Origin: Sphingomonas sp. So64.6b
Lineage (GTDB): Bacteria > Pseudomonadota > Alphaproteobacteria > Sphingomonadales > Sphingomonadaceae
Assembly: GCF_014171475.1 (NCBI RefSeq)
Contig: NZ_CP048817.1
Location: 1,054,001 to 1,118,000 of the forward strand
Reading direction: 5' to 3'
DNA length: 64,000 nt
Position 1 is the stretch's first letter; each line of letters starts with the position of its first letter. Positions 5,376-63,929 of this stretch are shown here, piece after piece. The translations under genes and the position numbers were made by a program. Below the pieces are notes generated by a model. That model ran no database searches. It had not been told where the DNA came from and saw only the letters and a program-made list of their open reading frames with translations.

Positions 5376-6473
5376 ATGACCGCGACTACCGGCTTGTCGT
5401 TCGAATTCGAGGCCAACCCTTCGCCCGTCGCGGCGAATGAGCGAGCGGCGCGACTGGTCGACCCGGGTTTCGGCCGGGTCTTCACCGATCATATGGCGGT
5501 GGTGCGTTATACCGAGGGGCAGGGGTGGCACAGCGCCAAGATCCAGGCGCGCGCGCCGCTGCAGATGGATCCGGCCTCCTCGGTGCTGCACTATGCGCAG
5601 GAAATCTTCGAGGGCATGAAAGCCTATCGCCTCGCCGATGACGGCATCGCGCTGTTCCGGCCCGAGGCGAATGCGAAGCGTTTCCAGTCTTCGGCGCGGC
5701 GTATGGCGATGCCCGAATTGCCTGAGGAAATCTTTCTCGAATCGGTTCGCCGGCTGGTCGAGATAGACAAGGACTGGATCCCGGACAGCGATGGGGGCTC
5801 GCTTTATCTGCGACCCTTCATGTTCGCCAGCGAAGTGTTTCTGGGTGTGAAACCGAGCTCGGAATATCTCTACATCGTCATCGCCTCCTCGGTCGGCGCC
5901 TATTTCAAGGGCGGCGCGCCGAGCGTCTCGCTTTGGGTTTCGCAGGATTATACCCGCGCGGCACCCGGCGGCACCGGTGCGGCCAAGTGTGGCGGCAATT
6001 ATGCGACCAGCCTGCTCGCACAGTCCGAGGCGATTCGTCACGGTTGCGATCAGGTCGTCTTCCTCGACGCGGTCGAGCGCCGCTGGATCGAGGAACTGGG
6101 CGGCATGAACATCTTTTTCGTGTTCGAAGACGGATCGATGGTGACTCCGCCGCTGACCGGCACGATCCTGCCCGGCATCACCCGCGATTCGATCCTCACA
6201 TTGGCGCGTGATCAGGGCATCACGGTGCGCGAGGAGCCTTATTCGCTCGAGCAATGGCGCGCCGATGCAACAAGCGGCAGGCTGACCGAGAGCTTCGCCT
6301 GTGGGACAGCGGCGGTGGTCACGCCGATCGGCAAGGTCGCGACGCCCGAGGGCAGCTTCACGATCGGCAGCGGTTCAGCTGGGCAATTAACCTCGCAGAT
6401 GCGCACCCGGCTGGTCGAGATTCAGCGTGGCCAGGCGCCTGATCCACATGGCTGGGTCTCGCGGCTCGACTGA
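5376..6473 (+). CDS. ilvE: Branched-chain amino acid aminotransferase
   Basis: The product is 365 aa, in the long (BCAT2-like) class of fold-type IV PLP aminotransferases. Visible features are LHYAQEIFEGMKAYR, RPFMFASEVFLGV, the GTGAAKCGGNYATSLLAQ segment containing the PLP-binding lysine, EELGGMNIFFV and TGTILPGITRDSIL. It transfers the amino group between valine, leucine or isoleucine and 2-oxoglutarate. AGAGGAAG lies before the ATG at 5376. Confidence 0.95.
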   Translation: MTATTGLSFEFEANPSPVAANERAARLVDPGFGRVFTDHMAVVRYTEGQGWHSAKIQARAPLQMDPASSVLHYAQEIFEGMKAYRLADDGIALFRPEANAKRFQSSARRMAMPELPEEIFLESVRRLVEIDKDWIPDSDGGSLYLRPFMFASEVFLGVKPSSEYLYIVIASSVGAYFKGGAPSVSLWVSQDYTRAAPGGTGAAKCGGNYATSLLAQSEAIRHGCDQVVFLDAVERRWIEELGGMNIFFVFEDGSMVTPPLTGTILPGITRDSILTLARDQGITVREEPYSLEQWRADATSGRLTESFACGTAAVVTPIGKVATPEGSFTIGSGSAGQLTSQMRTRLVEIQRGQAPDPHGWVSRLD

Positions 6474-7549: not shown

Positions 7550-7588
7550 GCTCCGGGGATTGGATGACGTGCCGATCCCCGGGGCTTT
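7550..7588. terminator. Bidirectional terminator hairpin
   Basis: GCTCCGGGGAT at 7550-7560 pairs with ATCCCCGGGGC at 7575-7585, with one G-T pair, followed by TTT. It sits between the convergent DUF3617 and DUF1697 genes and can serve both. Confidence 0.65.
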
Positions 7589-8133
7589 CACATCTGACCG
7601 ATCGCGGCCTCGATCTTCATCACCGTACCCCAGTTGCGATTGGTGCCCACCGCGCCGAGCGATTTCAACCCGAAGCCGCCGATCAGCTTCGATCCCGCAA
7701 TCTCGCCATTGCCGAACCAGCAATAGAAATCGCCGCTCGCCGATCGTTCGACACGCTCGACGCCTTGCATGCGCCGGTGCAACTGGTCGAGCCCATGATC
7801 GGGCAGCGGATCGCGCATTGCCCAGGCAATCACCCGCGACGGCGTTGCTTCGGCTTCGGCCTTGAATGGATTGCCGGCGATCAGGGTGCGCCATTGCGCC
7901 GCCGTCTTGACGATGACCTCGGTCGCGCGGCCATATTCCTCGGCACAGGCTGATTCGAGCTCGCGCGTCAGCCGATCCACGCTCTTATGCGACCGGAACA
8001 GCAGATTGCCGGTGGCGATCACGGTCCGGGCGTCGGCCCCGCCGACCGCTTCGGCGATACGCAGCAACGCTTCGCGCGTCAGCCGGCGATCGCCGATCAC
8101 CATGCTTCGGAACAGGGCGATTTTGATCGGCAT
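7588..8133 (-). CDS. DUF1697 family protein
   Basis: The 181-aa protein starts MPIKIALFRSMVIGDRRLTR and contains ARTVIATGNLLFRS, a segment typical of DUF1697, and the C-terminal KLIGGFGLKSLGAVGTNRNW motif in which family members end with a TxRNW sequence. No enzymatic role is known. The frame continues upstream of 8133, but only this ATG gives the usual family N-terminus. Confidence 0.8.
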   Translation of the reverse strand: MPIKIALFRSMVIGDRRLTREALLRIAEAVGGADARTVIATGNLLFRSHKSVDRLTRELESACAEEYGRATEVIVKTAAQWRTLIAGNPFKAEAEATPSRVIAWAMRDPLPDHGLDQLHRRMQGVERVERSASGDFYCWFGNGEIAGSKLIGGFGLKSLGAVGTNRNWGTVMKIEAAIGQM

Positions 8134-8357
8134 CCGATCGTTCAAGCGCCGGCAGGATCGCAAGACTGCGGGCCTAGGGTGCGTTCGGGCGAATTCATCA
8201 TCGGGATATCGCATGAATCGAGGGCAGATATCGAGTTCATCAGAGTCAACTTCCAAGGCCCCATGGATGTCGCTGCTACGCGTCTCCTGAAAGCCGCATG
8301 GCTCGACCTTTGGGCCGATCTCGATACAAGAAGCAATCAGCCGCGAAGAGGTTTGTC

Positions 8358-10451
8358 ATGTCCCGGATTTGCCTGTCGCTTGTCCTGCTGCTCGCCGCGC
8401 TTGGCTGGTCCGCGCCGGCAATGTCGAGCGGTGATTTCGGATGTTCGACCTCCTGGAAGCTGAAACATCGCGACATGACCGGTTGCGACAATATGGCGAT
8501 CCTGTCGCCCGGCAACGATACGCGGGTGAATCTGGTGCTGTTGATCGGTCGAGGCGCTCCGAAACAAGGTGTGATCCTGCCGGAATCTGCAGCGAAACCG
8601 GGTGCCTTGTTCGATTGGGCGATGTTTGCGGGTTATAATTATTCCGGCCCGGAAACGACCGCCAATCTCAATTATGCCAATGGCGAGGGATCTCGCTGCC
8701 TGAGCAACCATTTCGGCACCGATGATTTCGTGGCGGCGGTCGAGGCGGAGCGCAAGGTCCCGCAGCGTGATCGGGACGAATTGGTCCGCGCCCGACGCGC
8801 GTTGCAACCGAACTGCGCGGGCGCGGCTGGAGCGGCGCCGATCGCTCAGGCCATCCAGTCGCCGCGCGGAAAGTTATTCGAGCGCTATCTGACCGGCGCG
8901 GCAGCCTTTTATGCGGGGGATTATGACGCCGCCGCCACAGCGTTCCGGGGCCTGGCTGGCGCGGACCAGGCATGGGTCGCGGAAACGGTGCGCTATATGC
9001 TGGCGCGCGTCGAAGTGAACCGTGCCCAGGTCGATGCCTTTGACGAATATGGCTCCCCCAAAGAGGGGTTTTCGGCTCAGGCCGGGATCATCGACGCGGC
9101 CGAGGCCAATCTGCGCGACTATCTCCGCGCCTATCCGCAGGGGCGCTACAGCAACTCGGCGCAAGGCTTGTTGCGGCGGGTCTATTGGCTTGGGCGGCGG
9201 ACCGACAAGCTGGTGGCGGAATATGTCGCGCTGTTCAGGCTCGCGCCGGAAAAGCGCGGTATCGAAACCGCGGACCTTGTGCAGGAAGTGGACAACAAGC
9301 TCCTGCCGCTGCTCACCACAGCCAATACGACCGATCCGATCCTGCTTGCCGTGATCGATCTCGCGCGGATGCGCGGGCCCGATAGCGATAAGCCAACGGA
9401 CTGCTGCGGCACGCCGCTCACGCTTGACGAACTACAGGCGCAGCGCGCGCATTTTTCCGGCAATCCGGCGCTGTTCGAGCATTTGCTTGCCGTGCATGCG
9501 CTGTTTATCGACAAGCGTCCTGCCGACGTCCTGCGGCTCATTCCGGATGCGGCGCGGCAGCGCGGGTTCGACTATCTCCAGTTCAGCCGGCAGATGCTGC
9601 GCGGCATGGCGCTAGAGCAAAGCCGGGATCGTAACGCGCGCGGTTTCTGGGTCGAGATGCTACCCGGCGCGACTTTGCCGTTCGAACGCCCTGCGCTCGA
9701 ACTCGCGCTGGCGCTGCACGACGAACGCTCCGCTGGCCTCGAGCGTATCTTCGCCAAGGAATCGCCGGTTCGAACACCGGATATCCGCGAGATATTGCTC
9801 AAGAATGTCGCGGGGCCGCAATTGCTCCGACGTCAGGCCAGAGACGGCGGCATTTCGCGCCACGAACGCGGCGTTGCGCTTGCCACCTTGCTGTACAAGG
9901 AGATGGGGCATGGCTTGTATCAGGACTTTCTCGACGACCTGAAATCCGTGCCGGCCAATGCGTCGGTCGAGGGCAGCCTTTATGATTTTGCCGCGACCAA
10001 TGATCCGCCATTGGGAGTCTTTCTGAAGTCCGGCAATATGGGGGATTATGGCTGCGCAACTTTCCGACAGACCATGATATCGCTGGCGAAGGCGCCGCGC
10101 GATGTGACGGCGCGTCTGTGCCTGGCCGAATTCGTGCGGGCGAACAATTTCGATCAGTCCGAGTTTGACCGTCAGCCACCCGCTGACCAACTTGGCGGCA
10201 CGCAATCGCTGTTTCCGGGCGAGCCCTATTCGCGGCTGGAAGTCTATAAGTCGATTATCGCCGACCCGCAGGCGCCCGCACGCGGCAAAGCCTATTCGCT
10301 GTATCGCGCGATCCATTGTTACGCACCGGGTGGCAGCAACGAATGTGGTGGGACCGACGTACCGCGCGCGCAGCGCAAGGCCTGGTTCGCCCGCTTGAAG
10401 AAGGATTATCCATCGTCGGAGTGGGCGCAGGACCTGCGATATTATTGGTAA
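8358..10451 (+). CDS. Large periplasmic repeat-like protein, function unknown
   Basis: This 697-aa protein has a clear signal peptide (MSRICLSLVLLLAALGWSAPA) and a mature part rich in short helical Ala-containing segments such as FYAGDYDAAATAFRGLAG and ANLRDYLRAYPQGRYSNSAQ, which look like tetratricopeptide-type repeats. I do not recognise a catalytic motif. Conserved-looking Cys pairs (GCSTSWKLKH with TGCDN; TDCCGTP) suggest an exported, possibly disulfide-bonded protein. The start at 8358 places the signal peptide at the N-terminus. It is followed after 3 bp by a DUF3142 gene, so the two form an operon. Confidence 0.7.
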   Translation: MSRICLSLVLLLAALGWSAPAMSSGDFGCSTSWKLKHRDMTGCDNMAILSPGNDTRVNLVLLIGRGAPKQGVILPESAAKPGALFDWAMFAGYNYSGPETTANLNYANGEGSRCLSNHFGTDDFVAAVEAERKVPQRDRDELVRARRALQPNCAGAAGAAPIAQAIQSPRGKLFERYLTGAAAFYAGDYDAAATAFRGLAGADQAWVAETVRYMLARVEVNRAQVDAFDEYGSPKEGFSAQAGIIDAAEANLRDYLRAYPQGRYSNSAQGLLRRVYWLGRRTDKLVAEYVALFRLAPEKRGIETADLVQEVDNKLLPLLTTANTTDPILLAVIDLARMRGPDSDKPTDCCGTPLTLDELQAQRAHFSGNPALFEHLLAVHALFIDKRPADVLRLIPDAARQRGFDYLQFSRQMLRGMALEQSRDRNARGFWVEMLPGATLPFERPALELALALHDERSAGLERIFAKESPVRTPDIREILLKNVAGPQLLRRQARDGGISRHERGVALATLLYKEMGHGLYQDFLDDLKSVPANASVEGSLYDFAATNDPPLGVFLKSGNMGDYGCATFRQTMISLAKAPRDVTARLCLAEFVRANNFDQSEFDRQPPADQLGGTQSLFPGEPYSRLEVYKSIIADPQAPARGKAYSLYRAIHCYAPGGSNECGGTDVPRAQRKAWFARLKKDYPSSEWAQDLRYYW

Positions 10452-61936: not shown

Positions 61937-62041
61937 CCAGCCGATGCCGCCGAACGGCGCGCCGGAGCTCGCGCCGTTGGTCGGTTTGTTCCTGTTGACG
62001 ATGCCGGCGCGGGCATTGGCCCAGAAGCGGTCGTAAAGCGC
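61937..62041 (-). pseudogene. astD: Fragment of succinylglutamate-semialdehyde dehydrogenase (astD)
   Basis: The minus strand from about 62041 to 61937 reads ALYDRFWANARAGIVN then RNKPTNGASSGAPFGGIGW, which matches the highly conserved C-terminal part of AstD (RAGIVNWN-PT-GASS-APFGGIG). Before and after this, the match stops: no dehydrogenase sequence precedes it and the following SGNHRPSAYY-type end is lost. So only about 35 codons of the gene remain, at the border of the AT-rich island. Confidence 0.75.
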
Positions 62042-62148
62042 CGGGGGTGACGGTGACGTGGCGTAGCTGAATTAGCATGGGGTGAAGAAGGAGAGGCGTC
62101 AGCTTTGCCCACGGAATACTGCCAGGATATCGGCCTCACACGCCGTTC

Positions 62149-63693
62149 TTATTCGTCAAAAAAGCAACACGTCGTCAGCACAAGGAACAGCAGCCCGAAC
62201 GCCTCGGAAGGCAGCGCTTCGATATCCCCATCAAGCGCCGCCAGCACCCGGTCGCGGTCGACAAGTTCCGGATCCAGCACGGGCGACCTCGCCAACATTG
62301 TCAGCAGATACTCACGGTTCTCGGCGATCCCCCGCACCGCAACCTCGCGGAAACTCTCCTTCACATAATCCTGCTCGAACACCGGATCGCCCAGCCGGGC
62401 GGTCAGGGTCCGGCGCAGCAGCATGCGATCGCGGCGATACTCCCAAGGGAGGCTGGCGACGAAGCGCGCCAGTATCGGGTTGATATAGGGATAGATCGGC
62501 CAGATTCCCTGGCGCAGCAGGCGTTGCGAGCGGCCGGCGGCGGAGAGCCAGCTGGTGTCGGCCACCACGCCCTGCGATCCCGGCGCGCCGCCTTTACGGG
62601 CCAGTGCGCGGCCGCGTGCGGTGAGATACGGGTGATCCTCCAGCGCGCGGTCGTCGGTGTCGGTGGTTTCGTCGCTATAGACGGCATAGAGTTCATCGCC
62701 GCCAAAGCCGCTGGTCAGCGTGTCCACCCCGGCACGGGCAAGCAGGTCGAAAAACGCCTCGAAAATCTCCGGATAGCTTTCGTCCTGCGGCCAGACGCCG
62801 AAGCGGTCGCGACGTGCGCTGCGCGGGCCAAACGGGAGGAAGCGGCCCGCTGGCAACACGACATCCTCGAACCCGCCATGTCGGCACAGACGTTCGCGCC
62901 GGCCGTGTTGCGCCGCGCCCATCGCGCCGCTGAATTCGGCACCGTAACTGAGCACGCCCGGGCCAAGCACATCGGCGGCGGCAAGCGCGATCAGCGCCGA
63001 ATCCATGCCGCCGCTGAGTTCGATCGCGGTGCGCTGCGGGTCGATATCGCGCGCGGCGAGCAGTGCCTTCACCGTATCGAACAACAAGGTCTCGGCCGAG
63101 GCCTGCTCGGACAGGCTTTGCGCGCCCGGCATGCCCATCGGGGGCGCCATATGCGTGTCGATCGTGTCGCCGCGCGCGGTGAGGGTCGCGCCGGCGATCG
63201 AGCGGTACAGGCCCGCGACCATGGTGCGCGGCGTATAGGACATCAGCCCTGCGATCTGCGCCATGGTCGCCGGCCAGTCGATCGGCGCACCCGTGCCCCG
63301 CAGCAGCCGGGTGCAATCCCAGTCGATCGTCAGGCGGCCGGCATGGTTACGCAGATAGACCGGGGCCGAATGAATCAGCGAGGTTTCATAGGATACGGCG
63401 CCGCGGACGCGGTCGATGGTCAGGATCGACCAGTCGAGCAAGTGCGACCGAATGCTGTTCAGCCGATCGGCAAGCGCCTGGTCATTGCCCGGGCAGACAT
63501 GGTCGATGCCGTGCGGATCGCCGCGGAACCGTTCCAGGCAGGCAATGGCAATTTTCGTGTCGGTATCGATCACCAGCGCGCGCAGCAGCCGGTGTGCGAA
63601 TGGGGTAACGCGCGACCCACCCAAAACAACGCTCCCGTCGATGATCTCGACGGGAGCGCGCAAGTGCGAAAAATCGATCCCGGCCGTCAGCAT
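62149..63693 (-). CDS. Asparagine-synthetase-like protein, probable lasso-type RiPP cyclase
   Basis: The 514-aa protein starts MLTAGIDFSHLRAPVEIIDG. There is no catalytic Cys 2, so the N-terminal part is not an active glutaminase. The C-terminal part is an ATP-pyrophosphatase domain with the PP-loop ELSGGMDSALIALAA, then SGFGGDELYAVYSDE and a late YVKESFREVAVRG. Such proteins adenylate a carboxylate and form an amide; those next to a small peptide gene form the lasso macrolactam. It starts 23 bp after the peptide gene stop. The in-frame ATG at 63753 lies inside that gene and is rejected. Confidence 0.8.
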   Translation of the reverse strand: MLTAGIDFSHLRAPVEIIDGSVVLGGSRVTPFAHRLLRALVIDTDTKIAIACLERFRGDPHGIDHVCPGNDQALADRLNSIRSHLLDWSILTIDRVRGAVSYETSLIHSAPVYLRNHAGRLTIDWDCTRLLRGTGAPIDWPATMAQIAGLMSYTPRTMVAGLYRSIAGATLTARGDTIDTHMAPPMGMPGAQSLSEQASAETLLFDTVKALLAARDIDPQRTAIELSGGMDSALIALAAADVLGPGVLSYGAEFSGAMGAAQHGRRERLCRHGGFEDVVLPAGRFLPFGPRSARRDRFGVWPQDESYPEIFEAFFDLLARAGVDTLTSGFGGDELYAVYSDETTDTDDRALEDHPYLTARGRALARKGGAPGSQGVVADTSWLSAAGRSQRLLRQGIWPIYPYINPILARFVASLPWEYRRDRMLLRRTLTARLGDPVFEQDYVKESFREVAVRGIAENREYLLTMLARSPVLDPELVDRDRVLAALDGDIEALPSEAFGLLFLVLTTCCFFDE

Positions 63694-63716
63694 ATGGATC
63701 GGCCGCGTTGATTGGA

Positions 63717-63869
63717 TCAGCCGGCGCCGCGTCCGCCGAAGACCGCATCCCAAGGCTCGAACGGAGTCTTGCGCGCCACGGTGATGCCTTCTTTCGGCAC
63801 ACCGTTGACGATCGCCTTGTCCAGTGATTCCAATTGATTCTGCAAGGTTTTTGAGTCGACTGCTTTCAT
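63717..63869 (-). CDS. Putative RiPP precursor peptide (lasso-like)
   Basis: The 50-aa peptide has a helical, charged leader (MKAVDSKTLQNQLESLDKAI) and a tail ending ARKTPFEPWDAVFGGRGAG. Thr 30 two residues before Ala 32, and Glu 38 at the seventh position after that cut, would fit lasso rules (Thr at -2; acid at position 7-9). AGGAG lies eight bases before the ATG at 63869. The first core residue would be Ala rather than Gly, and the leader has no VETQ-type end known from sphingomonads. So it is a precursor by context and size, with an inferred core. Confidence 0.65.
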   Translation of the reverse strand: MKAVDSKTLQNQLESLDKAIVNGVPKEGITVARKTPFEPWDAVFGGRGAG

Positions 63870-63929
63870 TGTCTCTCTCCTCGTTGGATGGATGAGGCTA
63901 TGGTCCGGCAGGGACTTAGGCAACGAATG

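Follow-up and report, generated by a model that had tools for sequence, protein, structure and literature searches.

The DNA analysed here is a stretch of 64,000 nucleotides (the window) from the 5.06 Mb genome of Sphingomonas sp. So64.6b. Near its right end lies a gene for a 50-aa precursor peptide, followed by a gap of 23 bp (peptide stop to enzyme start) and then by the gene of a 514-aa AsnB-like enzyme, hereafter C. These genes and the features discussed below are the following.

63875..63882, minus strand: ribosome binding site GAGGAGAG of the peptide gene, read from the sequence
63720..63869, minus strand: precursor peptide gene, 50 aa (ATG at 63869, stop at 63717-63719), recognised by its open reading frame and ribosome binding site
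63768-63770, minus strand: Lys34 of the precursor
63747-63749, minus strand: Asp41 of the precursor
63720..63770, minus strand: predicted core K34-G50 (KTPFEPWDAVFGGRGAG), a K-x6-D variant with putative core limits
62152..63693, minus strand: gene of the AsnB-like enzyme C, 514 aa (ATG at 63693, stop at 62149-62151), assigned by PF00733
62998..63015, minus strand: PP-loop SGGMDS, residues 227-232 of C
62896..62910, minus strand: clade signature Q262-x2-R265-R266 of C, from an alignment of 73 members of the B-less clade
61937..62045, minus strand: astD fragment of 109 bp, 95% identical to part of intact astD

The reading of the ORFs confirms what the first-pass annotation had described, namely a 50-aa peptide gene with a ribosome binding site 23 bp ahead of an AsnB-like gene whose product lacks the glutaminase Cys (Leu at position 2) and keeps SGGMDS. 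The GAGGAGAG element ends 5 bases ahead of the ATG, the predicted core also contains Glu38 (K-x3-E), and C matches the Pfam family Asn_synthase (PF00733) with 30.3 bits (cut-off 21). Compared with strain G157 of the same genus, the 150 bases of the peptide gene contain 3 differences (dN 0, dS 0.09) and C is 95% identical (dN 0.024, dS 0.176), and since dN is low relative to dS, both genes behave as coding.

An astD fragment had also been reported downstream of C; the fragment is indeed present, but the intact astD gene lies upstream of the peptide gene, beyond the window (the matching part is at 6174-6282 of the extended contig L009). The 109-bp astD sequence is thus a direct repeat that flanks the cassette on both sides, which suggests that it is the footprint of the arrival of the cassette by insertion or duplication. 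The gene to the right of the window, the astD of the earlier note, we take to be an aldehyde dehydrogenase, and a further gene there is presumably SelO-like. Since tblastn found no astD gene at 15 related loci, seven of them with only ~1.5 kb of flank, the arrival at this locus may be recent.

Distribution and gene neighbours of the pair

Proteins homologous to C fall into 50 clusters, and the scan of genome contigs with alignment A1 yielded 79 loci. Those at 40–69% identity to C come from Sphingomonas, Myxococcus and Gluconacetobacter, and those at 24–34% from Dyella, Luteibacter, Xanthomonas, Bradyrhizobium, Mesorhizobium, Cupriavidus, Yokenella, further Sphingomonas and many Actinomycetota. 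A protein search with a broad alignment returned 51 proteins, 50 of which had already been found. Within the genus, C is present in 9 of 295 genomes (our own included), and in a family-wide sample of 149 genomes (E 1e-20) it was found in our own genome only; its distribution is patchy at both levels. A homologous small ORF precedes C in eight of the nine close loci, so the peptide is conserved beside the enzyme. The gene of C is split into two frames in Sphingomonas sp. 7/4-4 (L021, 10001-11547; L100/L101) and in one Bradyrhizobium contig (L079, 9409-10994), and a motif-bearing peptide ORF precedes each split C.

The pair also occurs on plasmids. All six plasmid loci have an annotated 'hypothetical protein' of 40–54 aa directly before C, each with K-x5-D (see below). 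Three of them are near-identical and come from Rhizobium (L133-L135), two (L136 and L137) resemble loci already found and one (L138) is from a further Streptomyces, so that the plasmids contribute two new lineages. The annotated peptide ORF of L137 overlaps C and has a tail of 26 residues. Of the 53 plasmid records that match the Rhizobium C, 31 reach at least 60% identity; some matches are truncated. In L133-L135 (4867-7599), on plasmids typed as conjugative, the pair stands directly after an acyl-homoserine-lactone synthase gene and near rhiA-type genes. The pair sits in the rhi region in Rhizobium leguminosarum, a position hinting at quorum-sensing control, and 'asparagine synth' does not occur in the listed records of 12 open-licence papers on the rhi locus.

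The common neighbours in the wider set are clade-specific (among the 25 largest neighbour clusters). No peptidase or exporter conserved with the pair was found among the 6-kb flanks of our own locus, L014, L015, L016 and L020 (0 BLASTP matches above 45 bits). In 19 actinobacterial loci C is followed closely by one gene family, which can be on either strand (for example L041, 11539-12156); the L041 member is a GNAT (PF00583). Mesorhizobium L137 has an annotated phosphotransferase and a GNAT after C (7563-8986). It is possible that these neighbours serve for self-protection and that the product is an antimicrobial. An ABC transporter family is found near the pair in 10 mostly rhizobial loci (for example L039, 7798-9312, where it was assigned by Pfam) and is a possible exporter. 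In addition, the pair of Gluconacetobacter L018 and L019 has a TonB-dependent receptor gene on one side and an M1 aminopeptidase gene on the other (assigned by Pfam in L018, and by homology to L018 in L019). Aldehyde dehydrogenase was considered as a conserved neighbour and rejected: because the family is common, the relatives in L061, L067 and L070 (25–31% identity) were taken as chance.

The AsnB-like clade and leader peptidase B

The PP-loop SGGxDS together with the fold places C in the AsnB-type PP-loop superfamily; the solved folds nearest to its AlphaFold model (pLDDT 91, pTM 0.90) are those of AsnB-type synthetases. In the tree, C belongs to an AsnB-like clade of 73 sampled members that is separate from the lasso cyclases (support 99, by a quick method and with long branches flagged) and it stands apart from the asparagine synthetases of its own genome. 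The tree was built from L097 and 72 of the 80 loci, incomplete C sequences being left out. The clade has a signature of its own, with Q in 73/73, R265 in 73/73 and R266 in 71/73 members, while 16 lasso C and four Asn-synthetase-like proteins of our own genome carry E or D in these places and lack the R. Position 2 is L, I or F in 71 of the 73 members and T or a gap in the remaining two, none thus having the glutaminase Cys. The catalytic Lys is found in all 16 lasso C versus only 32 of the 73 clade members.

The scores of profile models give the same division. With the clade HMM, the B-less loci reach 56–808 bits, the 16 lasso cyclases adjoining B 18–54 bits and the four own Asn-synthetase-like proteins 22–30 bits; four of the 20 B regions used here (L113, L116, L122 and L132) have no C match and are outside the 16. 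Conversely, the lasso cyclase models NF033561 and NF033535 give at most 33 bits in six clade members, and the better of the two gives 97–239 bits in six of seven canonical C and 773 bits in the seventh, six of the seven canonical C falling below the curated cut-offs. The pair had been described as the A-C pair of lasso clusters, a claim that is not supported here: C is outside the lasso cyclase clades by the clade HMM, B is absent from the clade as sampled, nor is the pair a lasso cluster that has mislaid its B. The broader view of the pair as a RiPP-like unit is borne out; neither of the two outcomes that the first-pass annotation had named as refuting it appeared, the peptide being conserved beside C and C being apart from the asparagine synthetases of its own genome. 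Databases label the relatives of C 'asparagine synthase', but a metabolic asparagine synthetase beside a chance ORF is contradicted by the separate clade, the conserved peptide and the low dN in both genes, and it is hardly credible.

An HMM of B, seeded on ten B proteins from our own and related genomes, recovered B in every one of the 20 regions fetched for it (L113-L132), 15 of which do not overlap the seeds, and detected no B gene at any of the 79 clade loci from Sphingomonas to Streptomyces (flanks of up to 10 kb per side, shorter in some). The absence of B near the pair, noted in the first-pass annotation, holds on either side of it, and three explanations had been offered. The first, B beyond 64000, does not hold for the 13 kb inspected past the window (L009), which contain no B by eye or HMM. 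The second, a peptidase encoded elsewhere, is possible for this strain, as B genes do exist at other places in our own genome. The third, maturation in another way, fits best; B is missing throughout the clade as sampled, not only at our own locus.

The whole-genome search with PF13471 covered the genomes of 55 of the 79 loci, many of them drafts, and gave no match in 19, only partial matches of 21–31 bits in 10 and strong matches in 26. Among the nine genomes with close C, both Gluconacetobacter (one of the two records being titled a complete sequence) had no match and Myxococcus had only a partial one of 27.7 bits. Among the 46 with distant C, 17 had no match and nine had only 21–31 bits over 43–59 of 117 positions. 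Eight of the 10 weak matches exceed the Pfam cut-off of 26 bits; since they cover only part of the model and fall within frames of 340–570 aa, we read them as probably other transglutaminase-like proteins.

Our own genome has three PF13471 genes, two of which adjoin canonical C genes (L130 and L131), and it could be supposed that the pair is an ordinary lasso cluster for which B acts in trans from another cluster. This is very improbable, considering the genomes without a PF13471 match, the position of C outside the lasso clades and a leader without the YxxPxL motif. The B-type peptidase of L132 (own genome, 2195000-2205500) lies apart from the two canonical C-B pairs and has no C match with the clade HMM; we take its neighbours to be a sulfotransferase-like gene and a PqqD-like ORF.

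Lys/Asp spacing in the precursors

At 80 loci (the 79 and our own) the ORF upstream of C was picked by its ribosome binding site alone. A candidate was obtained at 72 of the 80, and 66 of these 72 have K-x5/6-D within the last 32 residues, compared with a mean of 15.5 and a maximum of 29 in 1000 residue shuffles of these ORFs and with 3 of 31 control ORFs on the opposite strand. Hand inspection adds a motif ORF at L037, L060, L079, L080 and L089, which brings the total to 71/80; at L088 the ORF picked mechanically was wrong, and the real one, elsewhere, also bears the motif. At nine of the 80 loci (L024, L033, L051, L055, L071, L083, L084, L085 and L090) no convincing motif ORF was seen even by hand. 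When all residue pairs at offsets 1–11 were ranked over 36 cluster representatives, K-x5-D came first (27/36, expected 3.8, z 12.7; runner-up z 5.3), as it did separately in the non-actinobacterial (17/22) and actinobacterial (10/14) representatives. The shuffle test and the pair scan are unanchored and were run after the motif had first been spotted by eye.

The peptide alignment comprises 69 peptides, four corrected by hand (L024, L051 and L085 having been taken out, and L037 and L079 not being among them); it is anchored on K and D, and their invariance there is by construction. L027, which has K-x5-D with a longer tail, is scored as 'none' in it. The variant K-x6-D occurs in our own peptide, L014 and L015 (the same subclade) and in L023. 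The residue preceding Lys is variable (K 22, P 13, G 4, R 3, T 3 and others, n=55), the tail after Asp has 6–13 residues (59 distinct aligned cores), and no C-terminal residue is conserved. The YxxPxL leader motif is found in none of the 69 peptides, and Thr at the lasso -2 position in two or 12 of the 69, depending on the assumed cut site. A lasso reading with A32 or G28 as residue 1 was dropped, position 1 being unconserved.

Three precursors carry tandem cores, namely six copies of K-G-[TA]-A-G-Q-D-A-Q-N-R-R-N in one ORF of L037, four related cores in one ORF of L061 and three in one ORF of L052, and the residue before Lys differs among the copies (R, K, A; K, R; G, S). Tandem cores are awkward for N-terminal closure, because closure through an alpha-amine needs a cut before each copy; closure through the Lys side chain would allow every ring without cutting. 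The six-core precursor (L037, 8954-9841) has a long N-terminal domain with no Pfam match, and the core pattern GTAGQDAQ had no matches in 296 order-level genomes. L037, L070 and L087, which belong to one subclade, have a common neighbour of 288–378 aa (the L070 copy without Pfam match) that, as we assume, resembles aerolysin-type pore formers.

Proposed reaction and comparison with known systems

The sequences show directly that peptide and enzyme occur as a conserved pair with no B next to it, that C belongs to a clade of its own, that Lys and Asp keep a fixed spacing and that C has a PP-loop; from this we infer the following course. C would bind the precursor in its uncut form and activate, by adenylation, the carboxyl side chain of an acidic residue close to the precursor's C-terminal end, which is Asp41 in our peptide and the K-x5-D aspartate in the others. 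The conserved Lys that precedes it by six or seven residues (Lys34 here) would then attack through its epsilon-amine with loss of water, and the product would be a side chain-to-side chain macrolactam (isopeptide) of ~7–8 residues with a short tail. A B protease or RRE partner would be unneeded, because a Lys side chain, in place of a freshly exposed N-terminus, would act as the nucleophile; later trimming and export might be left to unlinked or clade-specific proteins. A stand-alone AsnB-like macrolactam synthetase using the Lys side chain is the best reading of the pair and, in our judgement, probably the correct one, if by a modest measure. We are evenly divided on the wider proposal, that this is a new RiPP class in Pseudomonadota, Myxococcota and Actinomycetota, in which a stand-alone AsnB-like cyclase joins Lys and Asp side chains in uncut precursors, multi-core ones included. 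The conserved Lys could also serve recognition instead of nucleophilic attack, and in our own subclade the acceptor could be Glu38, given K-x6-D plus K-x3-E. Other points that weigh against the Lys reading are the catalytic Lys of lasso C, retained in only 32 of the 73 clade members, the nine loci with no convincing motif ORF, and the B genes present at other places in our own genome and, as strong matches, in 26 of the 55 genomes.

The main rival to the Lys side-chain reading is an unorthodox lasso, in which an unlinked protease cuts immediately ahead of the conserved Lys or one residue further upstream and the freed alpha-amine attacks Asp to give a ring of seven, eight or nine residues, Lys being conserved for recognition. 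A ring of 7–8 residues with a tail of 6–13 is lasso geometry, genes for M1, M20 or S9 peptidases lie near C in some loci, and the linkers that separate tandem cores are conserved and might be where a protease cuts. Moreover, triculamin and lariocidin read SKKSKPGD (PMC13192320, PMC12427821), and lariocidin is shown to close through the alpha-amine of Ser1 (PMC11451635); with identical K-x5-D spacing, they form the strongest caution against the Lys model. Among 392 genomes around a Streptomyces, the core of triculamin was found once (L140, 8864-9118); it stands immediately behind a Met inside the longest frame, and a C-terminal follower comes after it. Such a precursor needs no leader cleavage, and the cyclase-like ORFs of L140 are outside the range of the clade with its HMM (10.8 bits for the ORF after the precursor and 30.1 bits for a canonical lasso C-B pair ~4 kb away). 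Against the unorthodox lasso there are also the 19 of 55 genomes without a PF13471 match, the lack of a clade-wide common peptidase among the 25 largest neighbour clusters, the Pro, Lys or Arg that often precedes Lys, and the rarity of Thr at -2. We consider it rather unlikely.

C might instead catalyse another AsnB-type reaction on the peptide, amidating Asp or the C-terminus, forming a nitrile or attaching a different amine. Precedents are TsrC and ScdTA (amidation) and PesC (nitrile), AS-like RiPP enzymes that modify the C-terminus according to the nitrilobacillin preprint (PMC13060819). The glutaminase Cys is absent from C, although ammonia could serve, no C-terminal residue is conserved, and the Lys-Asp spacing would be left unexplained; such a reaction is improbable.

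In the open-licence literature, no description of such a pair of peptide and AsnB-like enzyme was found, nothing relevant on multi-core or stand-alone AsnB RiPPs, and no mention of the peptide strings. If the Lys side-chain reading is true, the enzyme would be a one-enzyme, leader-tolerant macrocyclase and a simple tool for constrained peptides. It would illustrate how an enzyme of the AsnB type can work without the lasso protease, and how lasso-cyclase chemistry does the job of a graspetide ligase with two genes. It would also explain many gene pairs annotated 'asparagine synthase-related' and 'hypothetical protein', including those by rhi genes on Rhizobium plasmids, and make them directly testable.

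Among known systems, beta-lactam and carbapenam synthetases have their fold in common with C and form an intramolecular amide without ammonia. Graspetides, among which multi-core precursors are known, are made by ATP-grasp ligases, whereas the enzyme here is AsnB-like. Their product is a side-chain macrolactam (PMC13097080), the product type proposed here. Lasso systems (A, B or B1-B2, and C) are alike in that a small precursor immediately precedes an AsnB-like PP-loop enzyme and in that the acidic acceptor stands 7–8 residues along a short C-terminal core that ends in a tail; they differ from the present loci, where B is absent and C falls into the separate Q-x2-R-R clade, and where Lys stands at a fixed spacing, YxxPxL is missing and three precursors carry tandem cores. 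Triculamin and lariocidin share the K-x5-D core, and the lariocidin cluster has a GNAT as do many actinobacterial loci here, but it differs in having B1 and B2 and in closing by Ser1 (PMC11451635). The triculamin type, as seen in L140 only, differs in that its N-terminal core avoids leader cleavage and its cyclase is outside this clade. TsrC, ScdTA and PesC are likewise AsnB-like enzymes acting on ribosomal peptides, unlike the present pair, which has a K/D motif and no glutaminase Cys. The same preprint counts ~3,800 RiPP-linked PF00733 proteins, ~3,500 of them lasso and ~300 uncharacterised (PMC13060819), and the clade described here may overlap the latter.
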